From assembly GCF_022201045.2 (NCBI RefSeq), contig NC_068558.1, positions 47,719,501 to 47,783,500 on the forward strand: a stretch of 64,000 nucleotides of DNA, in the 5' to 3' direction. Position numbers and translations under genes: made by a program. Below the pieces are notes generated by a model. The model made no database searches. It was not told the origin of the DNA and was given only the letters and a program-made list of their open reading frames with translations. This DNA comes from Citrus sinensis. Taxonomy: Eukaryota; Streptophyta; Magnoliopsida; Sapindales; Rutaceae. Positions 10,150 through 64,000 of the stretch are shown here, piece by piece (the first letter of the stretch is position 1; each line of letters opens with the position of its first letter).

Positions 10150-13100
10150 CGGCAGTAGCAGTAAGAATGGCATTTAACTTAGTGATAGCATAAAATGTAG
10201 AGAAGAACAATTCAAAAGTTTCTTCTTCGGTTTTGTTATACGGCAAAGGATTCTGAGTGGAAACAGCAGGTCCAGTTAGAATTAGAAAATAACTACTTAT
10301 TGACATTTAGGGCAGCAATTTTTCTGTGAATGTTTATATTATACATATTTTGTCATAAGGAAGTTTTTTGCAAGATGAATTAAATTTGTAAGTTTAACCA
10401 ACTCTATCATCGTTGGTTATTAAGAAACTGATATTACTATTATTGTTTTTTTTTTTTAAATGCATATTGCTCCTGTATTTTGTTCTTTGCCAATTAATGT
10501 GCATTATCGGTAATTCATTGATGAATTTGATGTAATTTGAGTTCTGTTTTTCATCTAAGGATAAAGTGCTTTAGGGATTTTCACTAGTTTGCTTCAGTAA
10601 TTGTCAGATTGAAGATGATAAAAGAATTGATACCTTTGGAAATATACAGTTATTGCGTTTGCCTTAAAAATCTTTTCTATCTATTCCCTATTGATTGACT
10701 CACCCACTAAATGGGTAATTGGTTGCTGGCTTGTTCCAAATTTCGGATCATCAGCTTCATGATTTATTTGTTAAGTTTCCAGAAATGTATCAACAGTTGG
10801 AATCAACAGGAGAAAGCAATTGGAGGGAGGCAAAAAATGGTGAGAAAGTTTTAGATATAGCGCATCTCTTGAACTGTACTTTCCAATGATGCGCGTCCCA
10901 TGATTTTTTTTTTTTTGGTTTGTGTAAGACGTCATTAGACATAAACTTGGGACTGTTTGGCACACTTACCAATGATTTCTCTTCTGAAATGTTGGTAACA
11001 CAAATCTTTCCTAATGGAAAGGGATGGAGATGCTTCATTTGATCATTTGACCTCAATAATGGAGCTAATTCATGCATGAAAATGGGTCATTGATTGTGCT
11101 TCGGGGTCGAATATTCTATTTGGTTGTGAGGAATTGCTGGATCTTTATTTGATTCTCAAGAGATCGAAAACCCCCGTTGGATAAAAATGTATAAAAGTTT
11201 CTGGCAAACAAACAAACAAACAAACAAACAAACAAGCAAGCAATAATAGAGTAAGATTCTCAAATCAAGTTCTTTAGCTTTTTCTGTCTCAGTAACCAAC
11301 GGAAAACGCCTTGAGAATTTAGATGCACATGGAAATGCGAAGGGAACCATTTTGCTGTTAAAATCTAAGCCATCCCTTTAAATTTCTCCTTTCTATAAAG
11401 AGGATTTGAGGTATCTCCACTCCAATCTCGGCAGAAAAAAAGATTGAAAGTAAAAGGTAAACGAATGAGAAAATCAGAGGGGAAAACCAAATGTGTCCGG
11501 AATAGCTTGTATAGCAATCAATGATTATTGATTTGCATAAACAAAATTGAAAACACTAACGAACACAAAAATTATGGTGTGGTCCATTGATCTCCGCGTT
11601 GCGCCCGTGAAGATATTTAACCAATGAACTAGCATTGACAAAATGTCATGTGGTACATGTGCAGTCTTCCAGAAAAGCTCTCAAGTCAAAACTTTGAAGA
11701 ACTACACCTAAATGGGAACGCCATGTTGATTGGTAACCAAACCAAAACCCAAGAAGCCCGTGCCCGCTGCCATGCCACTCAAAAGTCATTGCATGATTAT
11801 TTCTTTCCTTCCCATACCACAGTTTTAGGATGAATCTTTATCCTCAGTTATTCAATTATAACCACAAACTACTTGTTTATAACCCACAGTCACAGCATGG
11901 AAAATGGACAAAGGCTGATGAAAACATGCGGCCAAAACATGGCTCACAAAATTCCATATACTTTCATCTAATGTCCACCGACCCATTAAATCACATCTGG
12001 GTCCCCCTTATTTTTATTTTCTCTTCATTTATCTTGTTGAAATTTCTCTCTTTCCCTGAGACCCACATTGAGTTTCATGAGGATTACCAATGTGAGAAGT
12101 GAGAACGAGCACAAAGAGGCGCAAGAGCGTGCCATGTGATTGTTTAATTTGGCGCCTACGACTTTTAGTATAAATACAATTCTATCTCTATCCACGTCAA
12201 ACCTTTAATTTAGTTGTGTGAACGCCTGTACCAGTTTGGTGTCATCTTGACAAATAAGATATTATGAATTTCAAATTTCATGATTATATTATGAATTTCA
12301 AATTTCATGATTCACACTTGAAAATATATAATTTATTTATAGCATTGATCATTGTTAGAGATAAGAAAATTTAACATGGCCCGATTACCTAACATGAACG
12401 CAATACGAATAAAACATAATTATTAAATGGATCGGGTCTGAGTCGATAAATTTTTTCATGTTAGGTTAAGGTTAAAGTTCTTATTCCATTTATCCGATTA
12501 TTATCAATAACATGTTTATATTTTCTATTCTAAATTAATTTATAGATTTTTTTTATTAAAATTAAAAAATTGTACATAATTCTCTCTTTTTGTTTTTATT
12601 TTTTTTGAGGATGAATATATACGCAGTGTTCCATTTTTAAATTTTTATTTAGATTTAGAACTTCAATAGTATAAATATGTAAATTTTGATAGATGTGTAT
12701 AAATATTAAGCGGGTTATTAGATAATTCACTTATTTTCCGTATTAGGTTAGAGTCCCAATATTTGGACACGATTACTAAATCGTTTGGATTGATATAAAT
12801 TTGACACGATACAAAGCTAGCGCGACATGAACATGACCCAATGATCCATTTTGGCAGCTCAAGTTAGAGCGAGCTACCAGTATTTTAGTTTGTACTAAAT
12901 ATTGTTAATGTCGAGAATATTGAAGAATTTGATTATCTTCTTTTTCATGAGGAACAAGATTCACAAAGGAAACGTTCGGGGAGCACATTTCATTGCGGCA
13001 AAACAGATTTAATTTCTAATGTGAAAATCAGTTTGTTTGTGTAGGAATAATTCCAACACCAGGTTCCTCACCATGATAGGTAATATTAAATGTTTAGGCT

Positions 13101-14083: not shown

Positions 14084-16201
14084 TCAGCAGGGGCAGTTGT
14101 CGTTAATTTCCTGGTGTAGCCTCTTATTGTGACAATGTTTGGCCACATGCCCCTTCTTCCGACAATTGTAGCAGACTACAGTCTTGCTATCCATCTCTGA
14201 TTCTCGCCTCTTCTTGCTCATCTCTCTCATCCTTGGACCAAAATTTACAGCTGGAGATAACTCTACAAACTTGGAAGGCTCTTCTTGCTTGTTATGGCTA
14301 CGAGATTCTTCCTCTGCCTTTATATGATCCATCAACATTGTGAAAGTAAGGTATTCCATTCGCATCAACTTAATGCAGAAGTCCTTCCAAGACAGGGGAA
14401 GCTTGGAAAGGATGACGCTAACATGAAAATTCTCATAAATCATCATGCCAGCAGCAACAATGGAATCAGCAATCTTATTCAGTTCTAGAGCTTGCTCAAA
14501 GACTGATTTCTCATCAAACATCTGAAATTCAATGTACTTCTTAACTTGAGATCTCTTTGTTCCAAATTCCTCATCAAGGTAAACTAATTTCAGCTCTTCC
14601 CATAGTTCTTTGGCACTACTGGTTCTTTTTGAGTACTGATAATAAAGGTGATCAGATAGAAAGTTTAAAATGTGGTGGCGACATATGTTGTTGTCATTCA
14701 ACCACTTTCTTTCAGCAGCCTTGACTCTTGTTACTTCTTCAGAGCTAGCTTGAGGGCATAGAGTAACAATAGGGCATGGGTCAGTGAGGACATATGCAAC
14801 CTTTAATTGCTTTAAAAGAAGTTCTATCTGTTGCGCCCAGACCCGGTAATTCTTCCCATTGAAACGGTGGAGTTCAGTGGGAAAAAGTTCAAGAGGTGAA
14901 GTCATTGAATTTGCCACATCTTTGTTTTGTTCACCACTGGATTCAGATCTACAGTATATCGATTACATGGTTGAAGTCAGAATCATTTTGTTACCTGCTT
15001 TATAGGCAGAAAGTGATTATAAAAAAAAAGCCTTTAAAATGAGGACATGCTCAAGTACATACTAGAACATCATTGCGTCCACTTGAATGTTTATTTCCAT
15101 TTTAAAGCCAAGAAAACCCGCATACTTGATATCAAAAAATGACTTCAAACATCAATGCAGTATCTCTCACCTTAACTTAGATTGCATCTTCACAACAGCT
15201 TCATCTATTGCAGGGAGACTTTTACTGAAGGCTCTCCATTGTTCACTAGTCAACGCAATTCCTAATGTAGAGGGAGGAAAAATGCTTTTAGAAGTAAAAC
15301 GTTAGTGTGATTAAAAAAAAAAAAGGATAGTTGATGATAGGCCCCAATAACTTCAAAGTTTATGACAAAATTAATATTATAAAAGAACGTAAATTGTCGA
15401 AGAAATGTACTGTATAGACAGCATACGGAAGGCCTCAAAACTTGAAAAGTATCATTGTAGCAAGGGTTCCAAGCCTGTGAGTGCAAGGTTAAATACAAGC
15501 TAACAAAATTTCTCATTCATAACAGGTGACGGGTAATTCTTGGAATACTGAGTACTAGTGGTACGGAGATTGTTAAGGCACCTACATGACAAACTCATAA
15601 GCGCACACTTTAAATATAAATGCATCAATAAATTATTTCTCAATGTCGCAGAGTTGTTGCAATTAAATATAACAGGAAATGTATAGTTCACCTTTAGCTG
15701 TAGGAACCAGCTTTCCGTCTCTTCGAAAATATTCCCTAATTGATACAAAAGCTCTCCCTTTGAATTCTTGAATTGCAACGGTCCTCTTGTTTGAGAGCTA
15801 AAGAAAATTTAAAAGAACAGCATATCTCTAATATATATAAAGGGGGAAAAAGAACCCAAAAAAATTATAAAATATGTCAAATATTTTAATTTTATATATG
15901 TTTTGTTTACCTTGCAAATAATCGAATCGCCGTCATCGTTAATGCGTTTCCCGATCTGGGCTCGTTGCTCTTCAACTTCCAAATCCGGTTCTATACGATT
16001 GTCTGTGCTTTCGGTGGTGGAGAGCAAAAACGACTCAACAACTCCTCTGATAAACCTCTTGTGATTGGCGTCAGAGAGGTCTATTCCCAGTCGCTCAGAG
16101 GCCTCAACACGGACTTTGAACTCAGTCATCTCCTCCATGTCGGAATTTTTCAGTACTTCCATCACTGTTTGTCGGATTCTTCCTTCATTTACTGTTTCCA
16201 T
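14084..16201 (-). CDS. KELP (PC4-like) coactivator fused in frame to a copia-type Gag/CCHC domain
   Basis: Four coding exons on the minus strand: 16201-15911, 15797-15692, 15261-15171 and 14948-14084 (450 aa). Residues 1-97 form the DEK_C/KELP N-terminal domain (MTEFKVRVEASERLGIDL). Residues 98-162 form the PC4/p15 single-stranded-DNA-binding domain (NKRTVAIQEFKGRAFVSIRE, then LTSEQWRAF). Exon 3 ends AAG|GTGAG and exon 4 starts after CTGTAG. The phases fit exactly (AG+A gives Arg163) and exon 4 is open from its first base. Residues about 185-385 are a Gag UBN2-like region (FNGKNYRVWAQQIELLL). Residues 422-435 are a CCHC zinc knuckle (CYNCRKKGHVAKHC), and a stop follows 15 residues later. No protease, integrase, reverse transcriptase or LTR adjoins it. 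PC4-family proteins bind melted DNA and assist RNA polymerase II. The role of the Gag part is unknown. From memory, Arabidopsis At4g00980 has a comparable KELP plus zinc-knuckle annotation. Confidence 0.75.
15167..16201 (-). CDS. KELP: KELP, short isoform (unspliced third intron)
   Basis: If the intron starting at 15170 is retained, exon 3 reads through ...QSKLR to TGA at 15169-15167. This gives exons 16201-15911, 15797-15692 and 15261-15167 and a 163-aa protein, close to the length I recall for Arabidopsis KELP (165 aa). The KELP/DEK_C domain and the full PC4 domain are both present, so this form alone should be a working coactivator. The stop lies two bases inside the putative intron, so one splice choice decides between this protein and the 450-aa Gag fusion. 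The last residue, Arg163, is the same in both. Which form dominates cannot be read from DNA. Confidence 0.7.
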
Positions 16202-16409: not shown

Positions 16410-16481
16410 AGGTTCCACCGAGATTTGAACTCGGGTTACTGGATTCAGAGTCCAATGTCCTAACCACTAGACCATGGAACC
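16410..16481 (-). tRNA. tRNA-Gln (anticodon CTG)
   Basis: On the minus strand the sequence folds as a full cloverleaf. A perfect 7-bp acceptor stem pairs GGTTCCA with TGGAACC. The D-arm contains the A-box-like TGGTCTAGTGGTTAGGA. The anticodon loop CTCTGAA lies between the TTGGA/TCCAG strands, giving anticodon CTG (glutamine). The T-arm is CCGAG-TTCAAAT-CTCGG. There is no intron. A TTTT run a few bases past the 3' end, within TTATTATTTTGC, can serve as the RNA polymerase III terminator. The gene lies between the KELP and CYP703A genes. Confidence 0.95.
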
Positions 16482-16812: not shown

Positions 16813-16939
16813 GAGCAAATATTTGAGATGAAAATTGTGACATCATGTTAGGCTTATGACTGAAACACATTTTGCCAATAGATGAATGAACTAGACAAAA
16901 ATATCTAGTTTTTATTAGCTCAATAAATCGGTAGTAGTC

Positions 16940-17911
16940 ATGGACTTCGCTACATTTGCATTAATTCTTCTATTTTCATCTATCATTGCCGACATTATAC
17001 GCCGTTTCCAAAACCAGAAGTTCTTTCACCAGACGAAAAGGCTTCCTCCAGGCCCACCAAAATTGCCCATCGTTGGCAACCTTCTCCAGTTGAGCCAACT
17101 GCCACACAGAGATTTAGCTTCATTGTGTGACAAATATGGTCCATTGGTCTACCTTCGTCTAGGTAGCGTCGATGCCATCACCACTAACGACCCCGACATC
17201 ATACGTGAAATACTTCTCCGGCAAGATGAAGTGTTTGCTTCCCGGCCACGGACACTTGCGGCCGTCCATCTCGCCTACGGCTGCGGAGATGTGGCCTTGG
17301 CCCCGTTAGGCCCGCATTGGAAGAGGATGCGAAGAATTTGCATGGAGAACCTCTTAACAACCAAGAGACTGGAGTCGTTTGTGAGACACCGGGCCGATGA
17401 GGCCAAACATCTTGTTCAAGATGTTTGGGGCCGGGCCCAGAGTGGGAAGGCCCTGAATTTGAGGGACGTGTTGGGTGCATTTTCTATGAATAATGTGACC
17501 AGAATGCTGCTCGGGAAGCAATATTTTGGAGGCGGATCTGCCGGCCCAGAAGAAGCCATGGAGTTCATGCACATAACTCACGAGTTGTTTAGGCTTTTGG
17601 GAGTGATTTATTTGGGTGATTATTTGCCAATTTGGAGGTGGGTTGATCCTCATGGATGTGAAAAGAAAATGCGGGAAGTTGAAAAGAGAGTGGATGATTT
17701 TCACACCAAGATTATTGAAGAACATAGAAAGGCGAGAAAGGACAAGAGAAATTCAGTTAATGAAGAAGATGGTGAAGCGATGGATTTTGTGGACGTTTTG
17801 TTGTCTTTGCCCGGTGAAAATGGAAAAGAGCACATGGATGATGTCGAAATTAAAGCTCTAATTCAGGTCATTTATTTCTTACAACTTCTAATAATGTATA
17901 TAATTGAGTGG

Positions 17912-17946
<35 letters not shown>

Positions 17947-18758
17947 ATGATTTTATGCGCACTATTACTTATAGTGTGCAATAAGATCCATGTCGAGAAT
18001 TTAATAGTAGAATTGTGAGACCGATAAAATATCTCCTACTAATAAATTTTAACACCCATAGTGTATGTTGGCAGATATATATATTTTGAATTATATGTGT
18101 AATTTTGTGGCGTTTTTAGGATATGATAGCGGCCGCAACTGACACTTCAGCTGTGACGAATGAGTGGGCAATGGCAGAAGTGATCAAGCACCCACGTATT
18201 CTTCGCAAGATTCAGGAAGAGCTTGATTCTGTTGTAGGTCCAAATCGAATGGTCAATGAACAAGACTTGCCCCACCTTAATTACCTACGATGTGTAGTGC
18301 GTGAAACATTCCGCATGCACCCTGCCGGCCCCTTTCTCATCCTCCACGAATCTTTACGCGCCACAACAATTAACGGCTATCACATTCCAGCTAAGACACG
18401 TGTCTTCATCAATACACACGGGCTGGGTCGAAACACCAGGATATGGAACGACATTGAACAGTTTCGGCCCGAGAGGCACTGGTTGGCTGACGGGAGCCGA
18501 GTCGAGATAAGCCATGGAGCCGATTTCAAGATACTGCCATTTAGTGCTGGTAAGAGAAAGTGTCCGGGCGCGCCGCTTGGGATTACTTTGGTGCTAATGG
18601 CTTTGGCTCGGCTTTTTCACTGTTTTGATTGGACACCCCCGGAGGGTTTGAGGCCTGAAGATATTGATACAAGTGAGGTTTATGGGATGACCATGCCAAA
18701 AGCCCAGCCATTATTGGCCCTTCCAAGGCCGCGTTTGGCAGATCACATGTACCACTGA
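16940..18758 (+). CDS. CYP703A2: Cytochrome P450 CYP703A (in-chain fatty-acid hydroxylase)
   Basis: Two exons: 16940-17866 ending ATTCAG|GTCA, and 18120-18758 after TTTTTAG|GAT, giving 521 aa. Residues 1-20 form the N-terminal membrane anchor, followed by the hinge LPPGPPKLPIVGN. Family landmarks are the I-helix oxygen-activation motif AATDTS just after the junction, the K-helix ETFR, and the heme-binding PFSAGKRKCPG with the iron-ligand cysteine at about residue 457. The segment at the junction (IQDMIAAATDTSAVTNEWA) is characteristic of CYP703. CYP703A enzymes hydroxylate medium-chain fatty acids, notably lauric acid, in the endoplasmic reticulum of anther tapetum cells to make sporopollenin precursors. 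One member per genome is usual. The 253-bp intron contains a (TA)n microsatellite at 17917-17943. All key residues are present, so it should be functional. Confidence 0.94.
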
Positions 18759-55373: not shown

Positions 55374-58300
55374 TCATATTCTACAGATGCCAGCTAAGTC
55401 TAAGCAGTGCTCAAACTTAGCCATTGGAACTGGCTTTGTTAACATATCAGCAACATTGTTACTGGTATGAACCTTCACAAGCTTCACAGTGCCTTTAGAG
55501 ACTTCAAGCCTTATGAAATGGAGCTTGATGTCGATGTGCTTGGTCTTTTCATGATGGACTTGATTTTTGCTCAGACTGATAGCACTTTGACTGTCACATA
55601 GAATTGCTATGGATGATTGCTCATACCCCAATTCATTTATCATGCCCCTTAACCATATTGCTTATTTGAAGGCCTCTGCAGCAGCTGTGTACTCTGCCTC
55701 TGTTGTAGATAGGGCCACTACACTTTGAAGTGATGCTTTCCAACTGATTATGCAGTTATTAAGGGTGAAAAGAAAACCAGTGAGTGATCTTTTGTTATCT
55801 AGATCTCCTGCATAGTCAGAGTCAACAGAACCCTCAACCAGATTGTAGTTAGCTCTCTCCCCTCCATACAGCAGACCATAGCTTGTAGTCCCTCTTAGAT
55901 ATCTCAGTATCCATTTCACAGCCCTCCAGTGTTCCTTCCCTGGATTTGACATAAACCTGCTGACCAGGCTTACAGCATATGACAAATCAGGTCTTGTTAA
56001 GACCATTGCATACATTAGGCAGCCCACTGAGTTAGCATATGGTGTTTTCAACATTTCAGTTTGTTCTGATTCAGTGCTAGGGCACTGCTGACTTGATAAC
56101 CTGAAATGAGTTGCCATTGGAGTGGACACTGGTTTACAGTTCAGCATTCCAAACTTCTCTAAAACTTTGTTGGCATATTTTTCTTGTGATAGAAACAATG
56201 TCCTGGCTGTTCTGTTCCTTATCATTTCCACACCTAAGATCCTTTTTGCTGGGCCAAGATCTTTCATGTCAAACTTATCTTTGAGTTGTTGCTTCAGCAG
56301 ATCAATCAACTTCATGCTTTTACTGGCCAGAAGCATGTCATCAACATACAAGACAAGATAGATCACCTCCTCCCCATAGGTCTTTCTGAGATATACACAG
56401 TAATCATAACTGGATTTCTGAAAGTTCAGTTCTTGCATGTAGCTGTCAAATTTCAAGTACCACTGTCTGGGAGACTGCTTGAGCCCATAAAGAGATTTTT
56501 GAAGTAAGCAAACCCAATCAGGATGTTGAGTATTCACAAAACCCTCAGGTTGTGACATTACAATCTCCTCTTGTAGATCACCATGTAGGAAGGCTGTTTT
56601 AACATCTAATTGTTCAAGATGCATATCATAAACAGCTACCAATGACAGAATAATTCTTATTGATGTGTGTCTAACTACATGTGAGAAGACTTCAGTGTAA
56701 TCAACCCCTTCCCTTTGGGTAAAGCCCTTTGCTACCAACCTTGCTTTGAATCTCTTGGGTTCAACATCAGGGATTCCATCTTTTATTTTGTAGACCCATT
56801 TGCAGCCCACAACTTTCCTCCCTTCTGGTTTTTGAATCAATTTCCAGGTGCCATTTTTATTTAGAGAGTCCATCTCATCTTCCATGGCCTTGATCCATTG
56901 AGCTGATTCTTTACTTGCTACAGCTTCTACATAAGTTTTTGGCTCCTCTTGATCAACCTCTTGTGCTGCTGTCAAGGCATATGCTATTAAGTCAGCATAT
57001 CCCAATCTCTCTGGTGCTCTAACTTGTCTCTTCTGTCTGTCTCTGGTAAGCTGATAATCTTGTATTGAGATGTGCTCTTGTGATTAAGCACTAGTCTCAT
57101 CTAAGCCTTGAGTTTCTCCAGTGTGACTTGTGTTCTTACCATCCTCAGTTTTTGACAGCTCCACCTCAAAGTGAGGTGTCTCTGCACCTAGGATTTTCTG
57201 AATTGTGCCTTGAGTAGAAGTCTGATTTTTTTGCATCTCAGACTCATTGAAAATCACATCCCTGCTTATTATGCACTTAGGTGGTTTAAGGTCTACACAC
57301 CACAGCTTGTAACCCTTAGTTCCACTAGAATACCCTAGGAAAGCACATTTCAATGCCCTTAGTTCAAGCTTGCCCTGCTTAATATGTGCATAAGCAGTGC
57401 AGCCAAAGATTCTCAACTTGGTGTAGTCAGCTAATTTCCCTGACCATACTTCATAAGGTGTTTTAAGTTCTATTGCAGTTGAGGGGCATCTATTTATCAG
57501 ATAACAAGCTGTACACAGAGCTTCAGCCCACAATGTCTTTGGCAGCCTTGAATGAAATAGCATGCATCTAACTCTTTCCATTAATGTTTTATTCATTCTT
57601 TCTGCCAAACCATTTTGTTGTGGTGTGTGCCTAACAGTTTTGTGTCTCTGGATTCCACTCTTTTCACACAAATCATCAAACTGTTTATTGCAAAACTCAA
57701 GTCCATTATCAGTTCTAACCCTTCTAACTTTCCTATTAGTTTGAGTTTCAATCAAGGTTTTCCAGGCTTTGAATTTATCAAAAGCTTGATCTTTGCTCCT
57801 TATTGGATACACCCATACCATCCTAGAGAAGTCATCTATCATAGACAAGAAATAACAAGCTCCACCTAGAGATTCAATCTGTGCTGGTCCCCATAAATCC
57901 GAGTGAATATAATCTAAAGTACCCTTAGTATTATGCACTGCAGTTTTAAACCTGGTTCTTGAGGACTTTCCTAGGACACACTCCTCACAGAATCCAACAG
58001 TACTTATCTTATCACTCCCTAGAGCTCCCTGTTTTTCTAGTTCTTTCAACCCACTTTCACTTACATGACCCAACCTGAAATGCCACAGTAATGTTTTGTC
58101 TTGATCATGTTTTATCACTACCCCAGCATCCCCAGTTATTGCTGTTCCTTGCAGTATGTATAAACCATGCTGCATTACACCTTTCATCAGTATCAGAGAC
58201 CCTTTAATAACCGTTAAGGAGCTTGATTCAAGTCTGATACAACACTCTGCCTTATCTAACATGCTTAAAGAAATTAGGTTTCTTTTAAGCTATGGAATAT

Positions 58301-59336
58301 GCCTTACATTATCAAGTTCTCTAATTATACCATCAGACATTTTCAATCTAACAGAGCCTATACCAATGACTTTACAGGAAGCATTGTTACCCATCAAGAC
58401 TTTACCTCATTCAAAGGGTTGATAGCTACTGAATAAGTGTTTATGGAGGCACATGTGATAGGTGCAGCCAGAGTCAAGAACCCATTTACCTTCAGTTTCT
58501 ATGTTTGAGGCTACCAGAACACCAGCAGAGTCATATCCCTCATCTGAATCTTCAGAAGCAACAGCATTATTTCCATTTCTGTTGTTAGCATCCTTAGGCT
58601 TAATTTTTCTCTCAGGGCAGTCCCTTTTGAAGTGACCTTCCTTGTGGCAGTGGAAGCACTTCAAGGTTCTGTTCTTAGATTTTGATCTTTCTTTCTTTTT
58701 GCCTTTCCAGCCATCTCTCTTATCTGATCTCCCTCTTACTGTCAACCCCTCACCATCTTTTGTTTCTGATTTCTTAGAGCTTTCTTTGGAACTCAAAGCT
58801 TCCTTGACATCCTGCATAGCCAGAGATTGTCTACTATACAAGAGAGTGTCAACAAAATGTTTATAAGAGGGTGGTAATGAAGATAACAAAATAATGGCTT
58901 TATCATCATCTTCAATTTTCACATTAATGTCTTCTAGATCTAAAATGATCATATTGAAGGCATCAATGTGAGTAGTTAAAGAGCTGTCTTCTTCCATCTG
59001 GAGTGTGTAGAGCCTTTTCTTTGTACTCAATCTTTTTGTCAAAGATTTCTTTGTGTACAAATCCTCTAGCTTCTTCCAAAGGCTTGCAGCTGTTGTTTGG
59101 TCTCCCACTTCTCTAAGTACTCCATCTCCTAGACTTAGGATTATAGTGCTGTGAGCTTTGTCCATGGCTTCTTACATGTCTTCATCTTTGACTTTGCTGA
59201 TCTTTTTCGAGGTTCTTGGATCTTCCAGCACTTCTTCAATTCCCTGGTGAACCAGCAATGCTCTCATCTTCAGCCTCCAAAGATGGAAGTCATTTTCTCC
59301 CGTGAATTTCTCCACATCAAGCCTCGGTGTTGCCAT
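55374..59336 (-). pseudogene. copia Gag-Pol polyprotein with five in-frame stop codons
   Basis: From ATG at 59336 to the final stop at 55374, the minus strand is one continuous frame of 1,321 codons with no frameshift. It is broken by five stops: TAA at 59175-59173, TGA at 58409-58407, TAG at 58292-58290, TAA at 57086-57084 and TAA at 55664-55662. In order the frame shows Gag UBN2, the zinc knuckle CFHCHKEGHFKRDC, the aspartic protease LDSG, GAG-pre-integrase, the integrase catalytic core (HSDLWGP, RTDNGLEF, NGLAERMNKT), reverse transcriptase with YVDD, and RNase H (SDYAGD). Every catalytic landmark I looked for is present, so the only visible defects are the nonsense codons. This copy should not make a full polyprotein and depends on other copies to move. 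Confidence 0.93.
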
Positions 59337-60010: not shown

Positions 60011-60905
60011 AATTAATTAAGTTAAGTCACTTTAAGTTATTAAGTTAAAAAACAAATGTCACCTAAGTCTCCATCTTTCCGCATATTGAAGAATTACTAA
60101 TATAGATACAACCGCATTCTCAAGTCTGCTGCTCAATCTTCAGCCAAGAAAATTGGATATGAGACTAGTTTGTTAAATTTTTAATCAACGGATTCTATCA
60201 GAATCAATTCCTTTTTATCAATCAAATAAAAATGTTTTTCAGGCATCCGTTACATATTTTTATGTAAATAATTACAAGATAACCTACCAGTTTATCTGAA
60301 TTATGACCCCTTACTTAGAGAATATAGCGTCGAATTGTTATATTCAGTACGTGAACTGCAACATTATTATCTATCATAGTGGTTCATCTTTGATACTGCT
60401 ACTTTATTTGAGATATAATAAACAAAACAAAACAAAAAATCATAAAGAACAGGGTCTTGTCATTTCATGTCAATGAAATGATTTATTTATTTTAATGCAG
60501 GGCAAAAAAAGATTAAAATATATCAATCTTTGTCAGAATAATGACATTATATTATTCGCATATGAAGACTCTTTCTGTAATGGGAAATTTATCATACAAT
60601 AGACGAATTACATTATTTAATATTTATCATCAGGACTCTTGGTGAGAAAAACTGGCATCCTAATAAACGACACCTTATTACATCACATCCCCATTCTTGC
60701 ATATTTCTCACACTGGTCACAGAGCATGGCACAGTCTTCATTGCATCACACAGAAGGTGGAATATAACAATGAGGAATCAGTTCCATGCTCTCTTTCTAT
60801 CATCACTCAATCACTCCCATAGAATCATTTATTTTGGCCTAAAATAACTGAAACGCAAAAGCAGAACTTTTAAATTTTCTTGCTCGCAACTTGCAATGGT
60901 TCTCT
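60011..60905. other. DNA between the retrotransposon and the proline-rich gene
   Basis: AT-rich, with no recognisable EMB1703 exon and no other gene. The last 100 bases are probably the 3' untranslated region of the minus-strand proline-rich gene. Confidence 0.5.
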
Positions 60906-62359
60906 CTAGCTGTGATGGCCATTGCCTTTGTCTTTGACGTGGAATCCATTACCAGAAGGCTTTCTTGAAAGAGAAAGATGCACACCAGGATCATGATGAG
61001 AGCATGAAGAATGGAATACAATCGAGTTGTTAACACCTTGCACGTTACTATTCATGAATGCACCCATTGGAGGAGGAAGCATTGCCGCCTTTGCTTTGTA
61101 ATTCTTGTCCTTCTTGGACTTCTCTTCATCACTGCTGCTGCTAAAGCTGTGCCATCCGGTGCCATCGCTCTGAGTTTTAAGGCTTCCCTTGTTGTGGAGA
61201 GTATGAGGGGTGCCATCAAAAGTATGTTTCAGGGGAGACCTGATCACTTCCATGAAAGCACCTTTGTTCTCCCCTGCAATTGTTATAACCCTCATGCCAA
61301 CCTCATCGGAATCTGAAGAGAACTGCTTGCGGTGAACTTTCCCATTTTTCGCAACTTCCTTGTGCACCTCGTGATTCCCACGATGTGCATAGCTGCTAGG
61401 CTTGTGAGTCTCATCGAAATGGTTTCCAGTACCATTAAACCAAGACTTGGGCTTTTCACTCCTAGTTTGAACAAGCACGGTCTTTTGCTCTGTCTCAGCA
61501 GGGATTGTAGGCTGAGTCTCGGCTTTGGATGTAAACTGAGGAGGTGGTAGGGTCAAAGGAGATGGTGGTGGGGCGGTAGCTTTTTTATAAGGCGACTGAG
61601 GTGGGGTCCCGTCAGACAGTAGAGTTCGAGGACCAACTGGTGCTGGACTAGGCACACGAGGAGGAGAAGTAGTAGTACTTATGGCAGCTGTCACCGCAGG
61701 CTTTGGTTTGGCTGGAGAAGTTGGAACAGAAAATGTACTTGGCGCCGTTTGGGCGGAGATGTTGGAACACGAAAGGTAGTTGGCGCCGGTTTGGGTGGAG
61801 ATGTTGTTATAACAGGAAAGACAGTTGGCGCCGGTTTGGGTGGAGATCTTGTTATACCAGGAAAGGTGGTTGGCGCCGGTTTGGGTGGAGATGTTGTTAT
61901 AACAGGAAAGGTTGTTGGCGCCGGTTTGGCTGGAGATGTTGGAACAGAGAATGTAGTTGCCAATGGTTTGGGTGGAGAAGTAGTGACCGCTGGTTTTGGC
62001 GGAGATGTTGGCATTGAAGAGGTGCTAGGTAGCTTTGTGGGAGAAGGAGATGATACTTGAGGTTTAGGAGGTGATGTAGTGGCTGGAGGAGATGGGGGAC
62101 TCGGTGATTCTCTGGGGACCGGAGAAGACGGAACGGAAGTTCTTCTGATTGGAGATGTTGGAACTGAGGAGACCCCAACAGCTGCTGGTGCTGGGATAGA
62201 TTCTAGAGGAGGCTGCCCCATTGGCCTAAAAGGGGCACGAATCATTGGCGGCCGTGGCTGGGGAGCGGGGGGCTCAGGGGTTGGTGTAACCGGTGGGGCT
62301 GGGCGACCTATGGATGGTAAACGGAACCATTGACGGGGTGCTGGTGGTTGGGTTGCCAT
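60906..62359 (-). pseudogene. Proline-rich protein gene with a one-base frameshift in its repeat region
   Basis: Two minus-strand frames join into one gene of about 484 codons if one base is allowed at about 61746. The N-terminus is MATQPPAPRQWFRLPSIGRP, followed by long Pro/Ser/Thr-rich stretches (SPPKPAPTTF-type units). The C-terminal 110 residues are not proline-rich and look conserved: GMRVITIAGENKGAFMEVIR, FSSSSDEEKSKKDK, and HHDPGVHLSLSR near the end. There is no signal peptide, so it may be intracellular despite its extensin-like composition. I do not recognise a named family. The apparent defect is a GGCGCCG-TTTGGG repeat unit lacking one G found in its neighbours. It could be a real allele or a sequencing slip, so the gene may be intact. 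The start chosen is ATG at 62359. Confidence 0.7.
61740..61965 (-). repeat. 45-bp minisatellite inside the proline-rich gene
   Basis: About five units, each starting GGCGCCGGTTTGGGTGGAGAT on the + strand apart from small changes, with spacings of 42-45 bp. The central 45-bp units encode the 15-residue repeat TTSPPKPAPTTFPVI. The outermost unit lacks one G and causes the frameshift. Confidence 0.85.
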
Positions 62360-64000
62360 GACCAAAGAGAGAGTTTGTGCTAATACTTGTTATAGGTAAC
62401 TACAACTTTAAATCGAACAAATGCATACAAATGCGGCCCATGCTAGTTGTTATTTATAATATGGTTTATGAGCAATGAAGCTTCAACTTGGTTGAAATTG
62501 AAACTACTGATAGAGAGCCATGAAAATCACACGCTATTACGATGAAAAGAAAAGCATCGGATTCAGCTAGCACCAACAGCTGACAAAAGTTCACAAAGCA
62601 AGATTGGTATCAAACTGTCCTCAATTAAAATAGTTTGCTGCTTTTTTCTTTTCCTTTTTTTGTCAGCCATGATGTGGTCTGCGGTCTCAGTAAGACCTAC
62701 CTCAATTGAATTTCAACTAGTTGCCCTTAAAAATTGTGAGGCTACTAGATCCTCGTCATTTCGATTCTTTAATCAAGAAGCAAGTTAGCAAGAATATTTA
62801 ATCTTTTTTTTTTCAGTTTCTATTCACACGTTTAACAATTGGTTAATCAAAAGTACATGGTAGTGCTATCAAGGTGTCATATTCTGCTAAATAGTGGCTG
62901 CTCTTGATCTTGTCCCAAAGGAAAAAAGAAAAAAGAAAACGAGTACAATTAACAGCCATGGATCCGCTGCATATTACTGGACGACTGCCTGGCATAATCA
63001 TGCTGTCATTTCTCTTCTTTCATGCACCACAATTCATGATCATGCTTGAACTTCACATAACTGACTGTTATAAGATTCCTGCAATCGAAGAAAGATGTTG
63101 TTAGTGTCGTCCTGTTGACTTTGCTTGTTGAGATTGTGATGCTGTCTGGTGTCCACTTTCCCTTTTTCTGCCATTTTCTCTTTAGAATGACTTGAATGTA
63201 CGGAAGAGTGATTTTCAGCTTTAATTAATCAGTAGTTAAGGTTTTAATTTCCAGCTATAACATTCAACTGTTGTGCTAGTGAAAAGGAAATCTAGCGAAT
63301 GAGAGAGGCAGCAGCAATGTTGATTGCGACGAAAGATTCTAAAGCATACCTATTGCTAGGTAAGAGAAGAAAAGAATATAAAATGTGGGGCCTTGAGAGA
63401 TTCTGTATTTCTTACTCTTGTGTCGGTACTAGAAACCGAACGCTAAATTTGAAGCTGCCAACGACCCAGTGGCAAAAAGCCAATGCGATGTTGCTTACTG
63501 CTTAGCCGAGAAATTCTAGAATATAGGGTAAGTCTAGAATCTGTGTTCACGAAGTAGCCTCCCCAAAATTTCTCTGATATCTTGTGGCTCAGCACTTTGC
63601 TGCTTCATTGTACACAACATTTTTGCAAGAAGGGAAGGGCAGACAAAAATACAATACAATTTTGTGATTGTGCATGTATCAATCCAGCTAAAACTGTCGT
63701 TGATCAACTATTTTTTTAATATTTTGTTTTGTTACACAGCAAAACATGTCCGTACTGGTCTTATGGTGTATGAGAACATTAAGAATGAAGTATCCAGATA
63801 TCAAATAACATAGCCTAAAATGTGGTGGAGATAAATCAAACACAAGTGTTGGCTTAAAGAGTAATATAATCTTGATTTTGATGATAACAAAAAATATGGT
63901 AAGTGGTAATTTAGGAAAAATATTTTTGAATCTCATTAGTTCTCAAAGGTTAATAATCATTAATGTGAGATCAGTTTTAAACGATACAAGGATATGCTAT
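62360..64000. other. Right-edge DNA, no gene recognised
   Basis: Starts with the promoter side of the proline-rich gene. The short frames at 62904-63104, 63299-63505 and 63688-63936 show no domain. No EMB1703 C-terminal exon was found. The words at about 63866-63895 (AATCTTGATTTTGATGATAACA) are common near ends of plant retroelements, but no boundary can be set. Confidence 0.45.

Follow-up and report, generated by a model that had tools for sequence, protein, structure and literature searches.

Does a gene for the coactivator KELP in Citrus sinensis run on into a captured retrotransposon Gag, or do a host gene and a piece of a copia element lie side by side? The question was raised by a 64,000-nucleotide stretch of NC_068558.1 (hereafter the window), for which an earlier note had proposed a domesticated copia Gag fused to KELP. 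We examined the gene model, its second copy, the relatives of its Gag and KELP parts and the published record, and consider it very probable that the locus represents an old co-option of a copia Gag by a KELP gene duplicate.

Gene model and duplicated surroundings

Four minus-strand exons with GT/AG borders join in phase to encode 450 aa, according to the translation of the spliced model (Table 1). The exon-3 donor reads AAG/GTGAGA after 15171 (the slash marks the exon border) and the corresponding acceptor reads CTGTAG before 14948, while the unspliced reading frame meets a stop directly past exon 3. The exons, splice sites, phase, length and 222 bp third intron were as the earlier note had described them, including the consensus donor, the CTGTAG acceptor 222 bp on, and a Gag UBN2-CCHC frame that is in phase and open to a stop just beyond the knuckle. 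Pfam matches to DEK_C (E 2.5e-12), PC4 (E 2.1e-18) and Retrotran_gag_2 (E 3.4e-22) were all above their own cut-offs. The zf-CCHC match fell below its threshold (E 0.012, 16.1 bits against 20.8), with the C-x2-C-x4-H-x4-C spacing exact in the translation, and DUF4219 was likewise found below cut-off in the 450-aa protein (E 0.051). Two neighbouring features were also noted: a tRNA-Gln gene (anticodon CTG) at 16410-16481 on the same minus strand, some 209 bp ahead of the start codon of KELP-Gag, and what looks from its sequence like a cytochrome P450 gene, with two open frames at 16919-18758 on the plus strand and thus divergent from the KELP-Gag gene.

Table 1. Features of the KELP-Gag gene, in window coordinates.
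Feature	Position	Strand	Evidence
Exon 1: start codon and DEK_C domain (aa 6-59)	15911..16201	-	Frame translation, Pfam
Exon 2: part of PC4 domain	15692..15797	-	Frame translation, Pfam
Exon 3: end of PC4 domain (PC4, aa 96-146)	15171..15261	-	Frame translation, Pfam
In-frame TGA within intron-3 donor, at the stop-codon position of the unfused KELP paralogue	15167..15169	-	Comparison with paralogue L006
Intron 3, 222 bp, GTGAGA...CTGTAG	14949..15170	-	Sequence
Exon 4: copia-type Gag, reaching from close to the Gag start as far as the knuckle; stop codon 14086-14084	14084..14948	-	Translation, Pfam, Gag alignments
Retrotran_gag_2 (PF14223), aa 231-383	14288..14746	-	Pfam match converted to window coordinates
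CCHC zinc knuckle, aa 421-435	14132..14176	-	Pfam below cut-off and motif in translation

The whole gene recurs, intact, 253,785 bp further along C3. Only two nucleotides differ between the two coding sequences of 1353 nt, so the pair is unusable for dN/dS; exons 1-3 are identical over 488 positions, both differences lie in exon 4 (one of them altering aa 178 from M to V), and the introns differ at one of 765 positions. The duplication extends well beyond the gene, as approximately 276-54,166 of the window is collinear with C3:47973286-48027763 in pieces of 97.4-100% identity separated by unmatched gaps (eight best matches each), a comparison from which four off-register matches at 81-87% were omitted and which excludes the 2.2 kb between L020 and L005. 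Identity to the second copy is 99.36% over 9,525 bp around the gene and 99.25% over the 5.8 kb preceding the window. A separate segment, 60,500-62,500 of the window, is repeated almost identically 276 kb upstream, on the opposite side from the second copy (C3:47504007-47506008). This duplicated patchwork may represent a recent segmental duplication or two haplotypes retained in the assembly.

The Gag exon and published Gag-KELP fusions

When the 287-residue exon-4 protein was compared with the whole genome, 136 places were found at E <= 1e-3 (136 scored of 2112 candidates). Two of these are the KELP-Gag gene and its second copy; the other 134 share 23-45% aa identity with exon 4, and their number indicates that the Gag match is more than chance. 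Of the 134 matches, 19 (counted from the table of those listed) sit in open frames at least 1,300 aa long, which is about the length of a copia polyprotein. The best-scoring full-length copia Gags among the scored places are 38% identical to exon 4 at the amino acid level. In an alignment of nine copia Gag copies (L014 was omitted because of its stop), similarity to exon 4 starts beside the copia start Met, which lies 1-3 residues ahead in eight of the nine, and extends through the CCHC knuckle; exon 4 is thus nearly a whole Gag that ends just past the knuckle. It differs from the homologous Ty1/copia Gags of the same genome in having no copia pol match after Gag and in being part of a host gene model. 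Judged by sequence similarity only, the Gag part would have a capsid fold: its nearest sequence relative in the Protein Data Bank is the Copia VLP protein 8vvw (E 2.8e-7), which we take to come from the Drosophila element. A single-sequence AlphaFold model of the Gag part was of low confidence (mean pLDDT 40.1) and gave no such fold.

Fusions of this kind are already known as a family. Wang and Han reportedly described the plant Gag-KELP fusion in 2021, under the name Ctrg10. The sunflower gene HadGAG2 is such a fusion and was recovered from long-read cDNA; according to the passages of that study covered here, Ctrg10/HadGAG2 homologues occur in 24 plant families and carry DEK_C (PF08766), PC4 (PF02229), copia Gag (PF14223) and zinc knuckle (PF00098) domains, HadGAG genes have 4-10 exons and are without LTRs, and published fusions contain one, two, five or six knuckles (PMC9784723). 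The citrus protein has the same four domains, its knuckle at 16.1 of 20.8 bits but with an exact motif, and the citrus gene is likewise multi-exon, with four exons, and without LTRs as far as direct repeats of at least 60 bp at 8-22 kb are concerned (degenerate ones could escape). At the level of domain set, exon structure and absence of LTRs, we saw no difference between the citrus gene, which has one knuckle, and Ctrg10/HadGAG2. The agreement with the domain set in those passages (PMC9784723) supports the proposal that KELP is joined here to a domesticated copia Gag.

The earlier note had also suggested that the joining might be ancient and known in other plants, with At4g00980 as an example. 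The general suggestion is borne out by the 24 families; the example is unconfirmed, since the passages concerned mention neither DEK_C nor PC4 in AT4G00980, which they describe as a protein with DUF4219, UBN2_2 and zf-CCHC_4 domains that interacts with the ATR1 effector group (PMC4759884), as a zinc knuckle (CCHC-type) family protein (PMC2837038) and as an entry in a list of interacting proteins (PMC3633942). Among the passages covered, which also included PMC9039731, PMC6804339, PMC11861069, PMC8700633 and PMC10799480, the fusion is described only in PMC9784723; those of PMC8700633 and PMC10799480 cite Wang and Han and say nothing more.

The splice donor and the KELP stop codon

A PC4 search of the genome returned two further places besides the fusion and its copy. 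One of them (L007) is presumably KIWI-like. The other (L006, at about C3:805.2-807.2 kb) is an unfused KELP-like gene, named KELP from its domains. It has DEK_C-like and PC4 stretches like those of the fusion, with tblastn identities of 34% and 56% aa over the two stretches aligned, and the four ends of its introns 1 and 2 correspond in position to those of the fused gene. No Gag match was found in a 9 kb stretch around this paralogue at E up to 1.

Comparison of the two genes places the exon-3 donor on the KELP stop codon. After a common KMQS the unfused gene reads CGG ATC ATG TGA GAG ATC (R I M stop) and the fused gene AAG TTA AGG TGA GAG ATA (K L R stop), so that the two stop codons coincide and both genes share the nine bases GTGAGAGAT. 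These bases form the donor in the fusion; they follow CAT in the unfused gene (CAT/GTGAGAGAT) and AAG in the fused one (AAG/GTGAGAGAT). The GT core of the donor thus appears to have been present already in the stop context of KELP, the exon side differing so as to give the usual AAG in the fusion, with the ancestral state read from this one paralogue.

Because the donor falls on the stop codon, a transcript that keeps intron 3 would still encode a KELP of 163 aa, which would be of ordinary length. The fusion could therefore have started out as an alternative splice product, which it may be to this day, although a transcript retaining the intron might instead be degraded rather than translated. 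We also considered a stronger version, in which the stop context GTGAGA was a latent donor that became consensus (CAT/GTGAGA to AAG/GTGAGA) and the gene still acts as a two-product switch, giving plain KELP when the intron is kept and KELP-Gag when it is removed, in proportions under regulation, for instance during attack by viruses or retroelements; this we regard as possible and rather doubtful. The published passages covered here, to which Wang and Han (2021) and the sunflower figures do not belong, make no mention of a donor on the stop codon, and we do not claim that it is unpublished.

Age of the capture, alternatives and putative role

The Gag capture looks old, because the Gag exon is open and yet only 38% identical in aa to those full-length copia Gags that score best (136 scored of 2112 candidates). 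No direct repeats of at least 60 bp (exact seed of 14) were found at 8-22 kb of the window, a search that old degenerate LTRs could escape, and among the 15 best matches per query the pol pieces of three copia copies matched the window only at 55434-58658 on the minus strand, 39 kb from the gene. Within these searches, in which copia pol pieces were used without Ty3/gypsy pol, the functional copia layout of Gag followed by protease, integrase and reverse transcriptase between LTRs was not found at the gene. The claim that no protease, integrase or reverse transcriptase lies nearby accordingly holds for copia, and the claims that no LTR is nearby and that the insertion is not fresh agree with the missing repeat pair and with a Gag exon that is open yet divergent. 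The pol similarity at 55434-58658 starts about 1.3 kb past the end of the second-copy match (54166). A possible LTR remnant at 12.41-12.86 kb, from a match to L010, was rejected; it is shared by one of ten copia loci tested and is a dispersed genome repeat. Within it, at 12640-12860, lies a non-coding repeat of about 190 bp that is 75-78% alike at 38 places (40 scored of 316 candidates).

When neutral drift was simulated from the present letters of exon 4 (4000 runs at each distance), the frame survived intact in 47% of the runs for 0.02 substitutions per site, in 3.3% for 0.1, in 0.15% for 0.2 and in none of 4000 for 0.3. Given an origin old enough to be common to 24 plant families, according to the passages covered (PMC9784723), the open frame would speak for selection.

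Two other readings of the locus were weighed against co-option. A copia fragment could have been inserted recently and be included in the gene model yet remain unused, as copia Gags are common in this genome and copia pol similarity occurs at a distance of 39 kb; apart from the second copy, however, exon 4 has no relative closer than 45% aa among the scored places, no LTR pair was found, the sole downstream repeat shared with a copia locus is the dispersed one, and the Gag frame is open, so that we consider this reading very improbable. Somewhat less remote, but still improbable, is an arrangement of two separate genes, in which KELP ends at the TGA and the downstream Gag, either a remnant or a domesticated gene standing alone, starts at the first Met of exon 4. 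The TGA is indeed in frame at the stop position of the unfused paralogue, and exon 4 has its own Met near the copia Gag start; against this, a donor and an acceptor link the frames in phase, and fused proteins with all four domains are reported from 24 plant families, the gene being transcribed in sunflower, in the passages covered (PMC9784723).

In the co-option that we favour, a duplicate of the KELP coactivator gene would have gained a copia Gag situated just downstream, when a donor on KELP's own stop (AGG TGA, read as AG/GTGA) joined the Gag in phase by way of an acceptor a short distance ahead of where the Gag starts. We infer the use of this splice and the order of these events, and the function proposed below is similarly conditional. 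Gag-family domains self-associate and Gag knuckles bind RNA. The product would be a KELP that binds single-stranded DNA in the nucleus and whose Gag tail self-associates and, by its knuckle, binds RNA. Such a tail could allow KELP-Gag to bring the partners of KELP together on transcripts or templates, or to poison retroelement particles or viral movement complexes as they assemble. With intron 3 retained, the gene would give the plain 163-aa KELP, and the balance between the two proteins could thus be set by splicing. That putative RNA binding or assembly was added to a Pol II coactivator, as the earlier note had proposed, is plausible; any single functional step is put forward tentatively and is, taken alone, somewhat unlikely. 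The most likely role is that of a putative nuclear nucleic-acid-binding scaffold, followed by interference with copia or viral assembly. In the passages covered, KELP is described as an in vitro partner of the movement protein of tomato mosaic virus; its over-expression restricts cell-to-cell movement of the virus, the movement protein being drawn to the nucleus and to cytosolic structures (PMC11861069). The Arabidopsis PC4-like protein AtNMDM1 is reported to interact, both in nuclei and in the cytoplasm, with AtNMDM2, which is equated with the partner of the movement protein (PMC9039731).

The citrus locus extends by one plant genome the published record of a Pol II coactivator gene fused to that of a retroelement capsid. 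What the present analysis adds to this known fusion is the placement of the donor on the stop codon, which offers a concrete, testable route by which such a fusion could start without loss of the parent protein.
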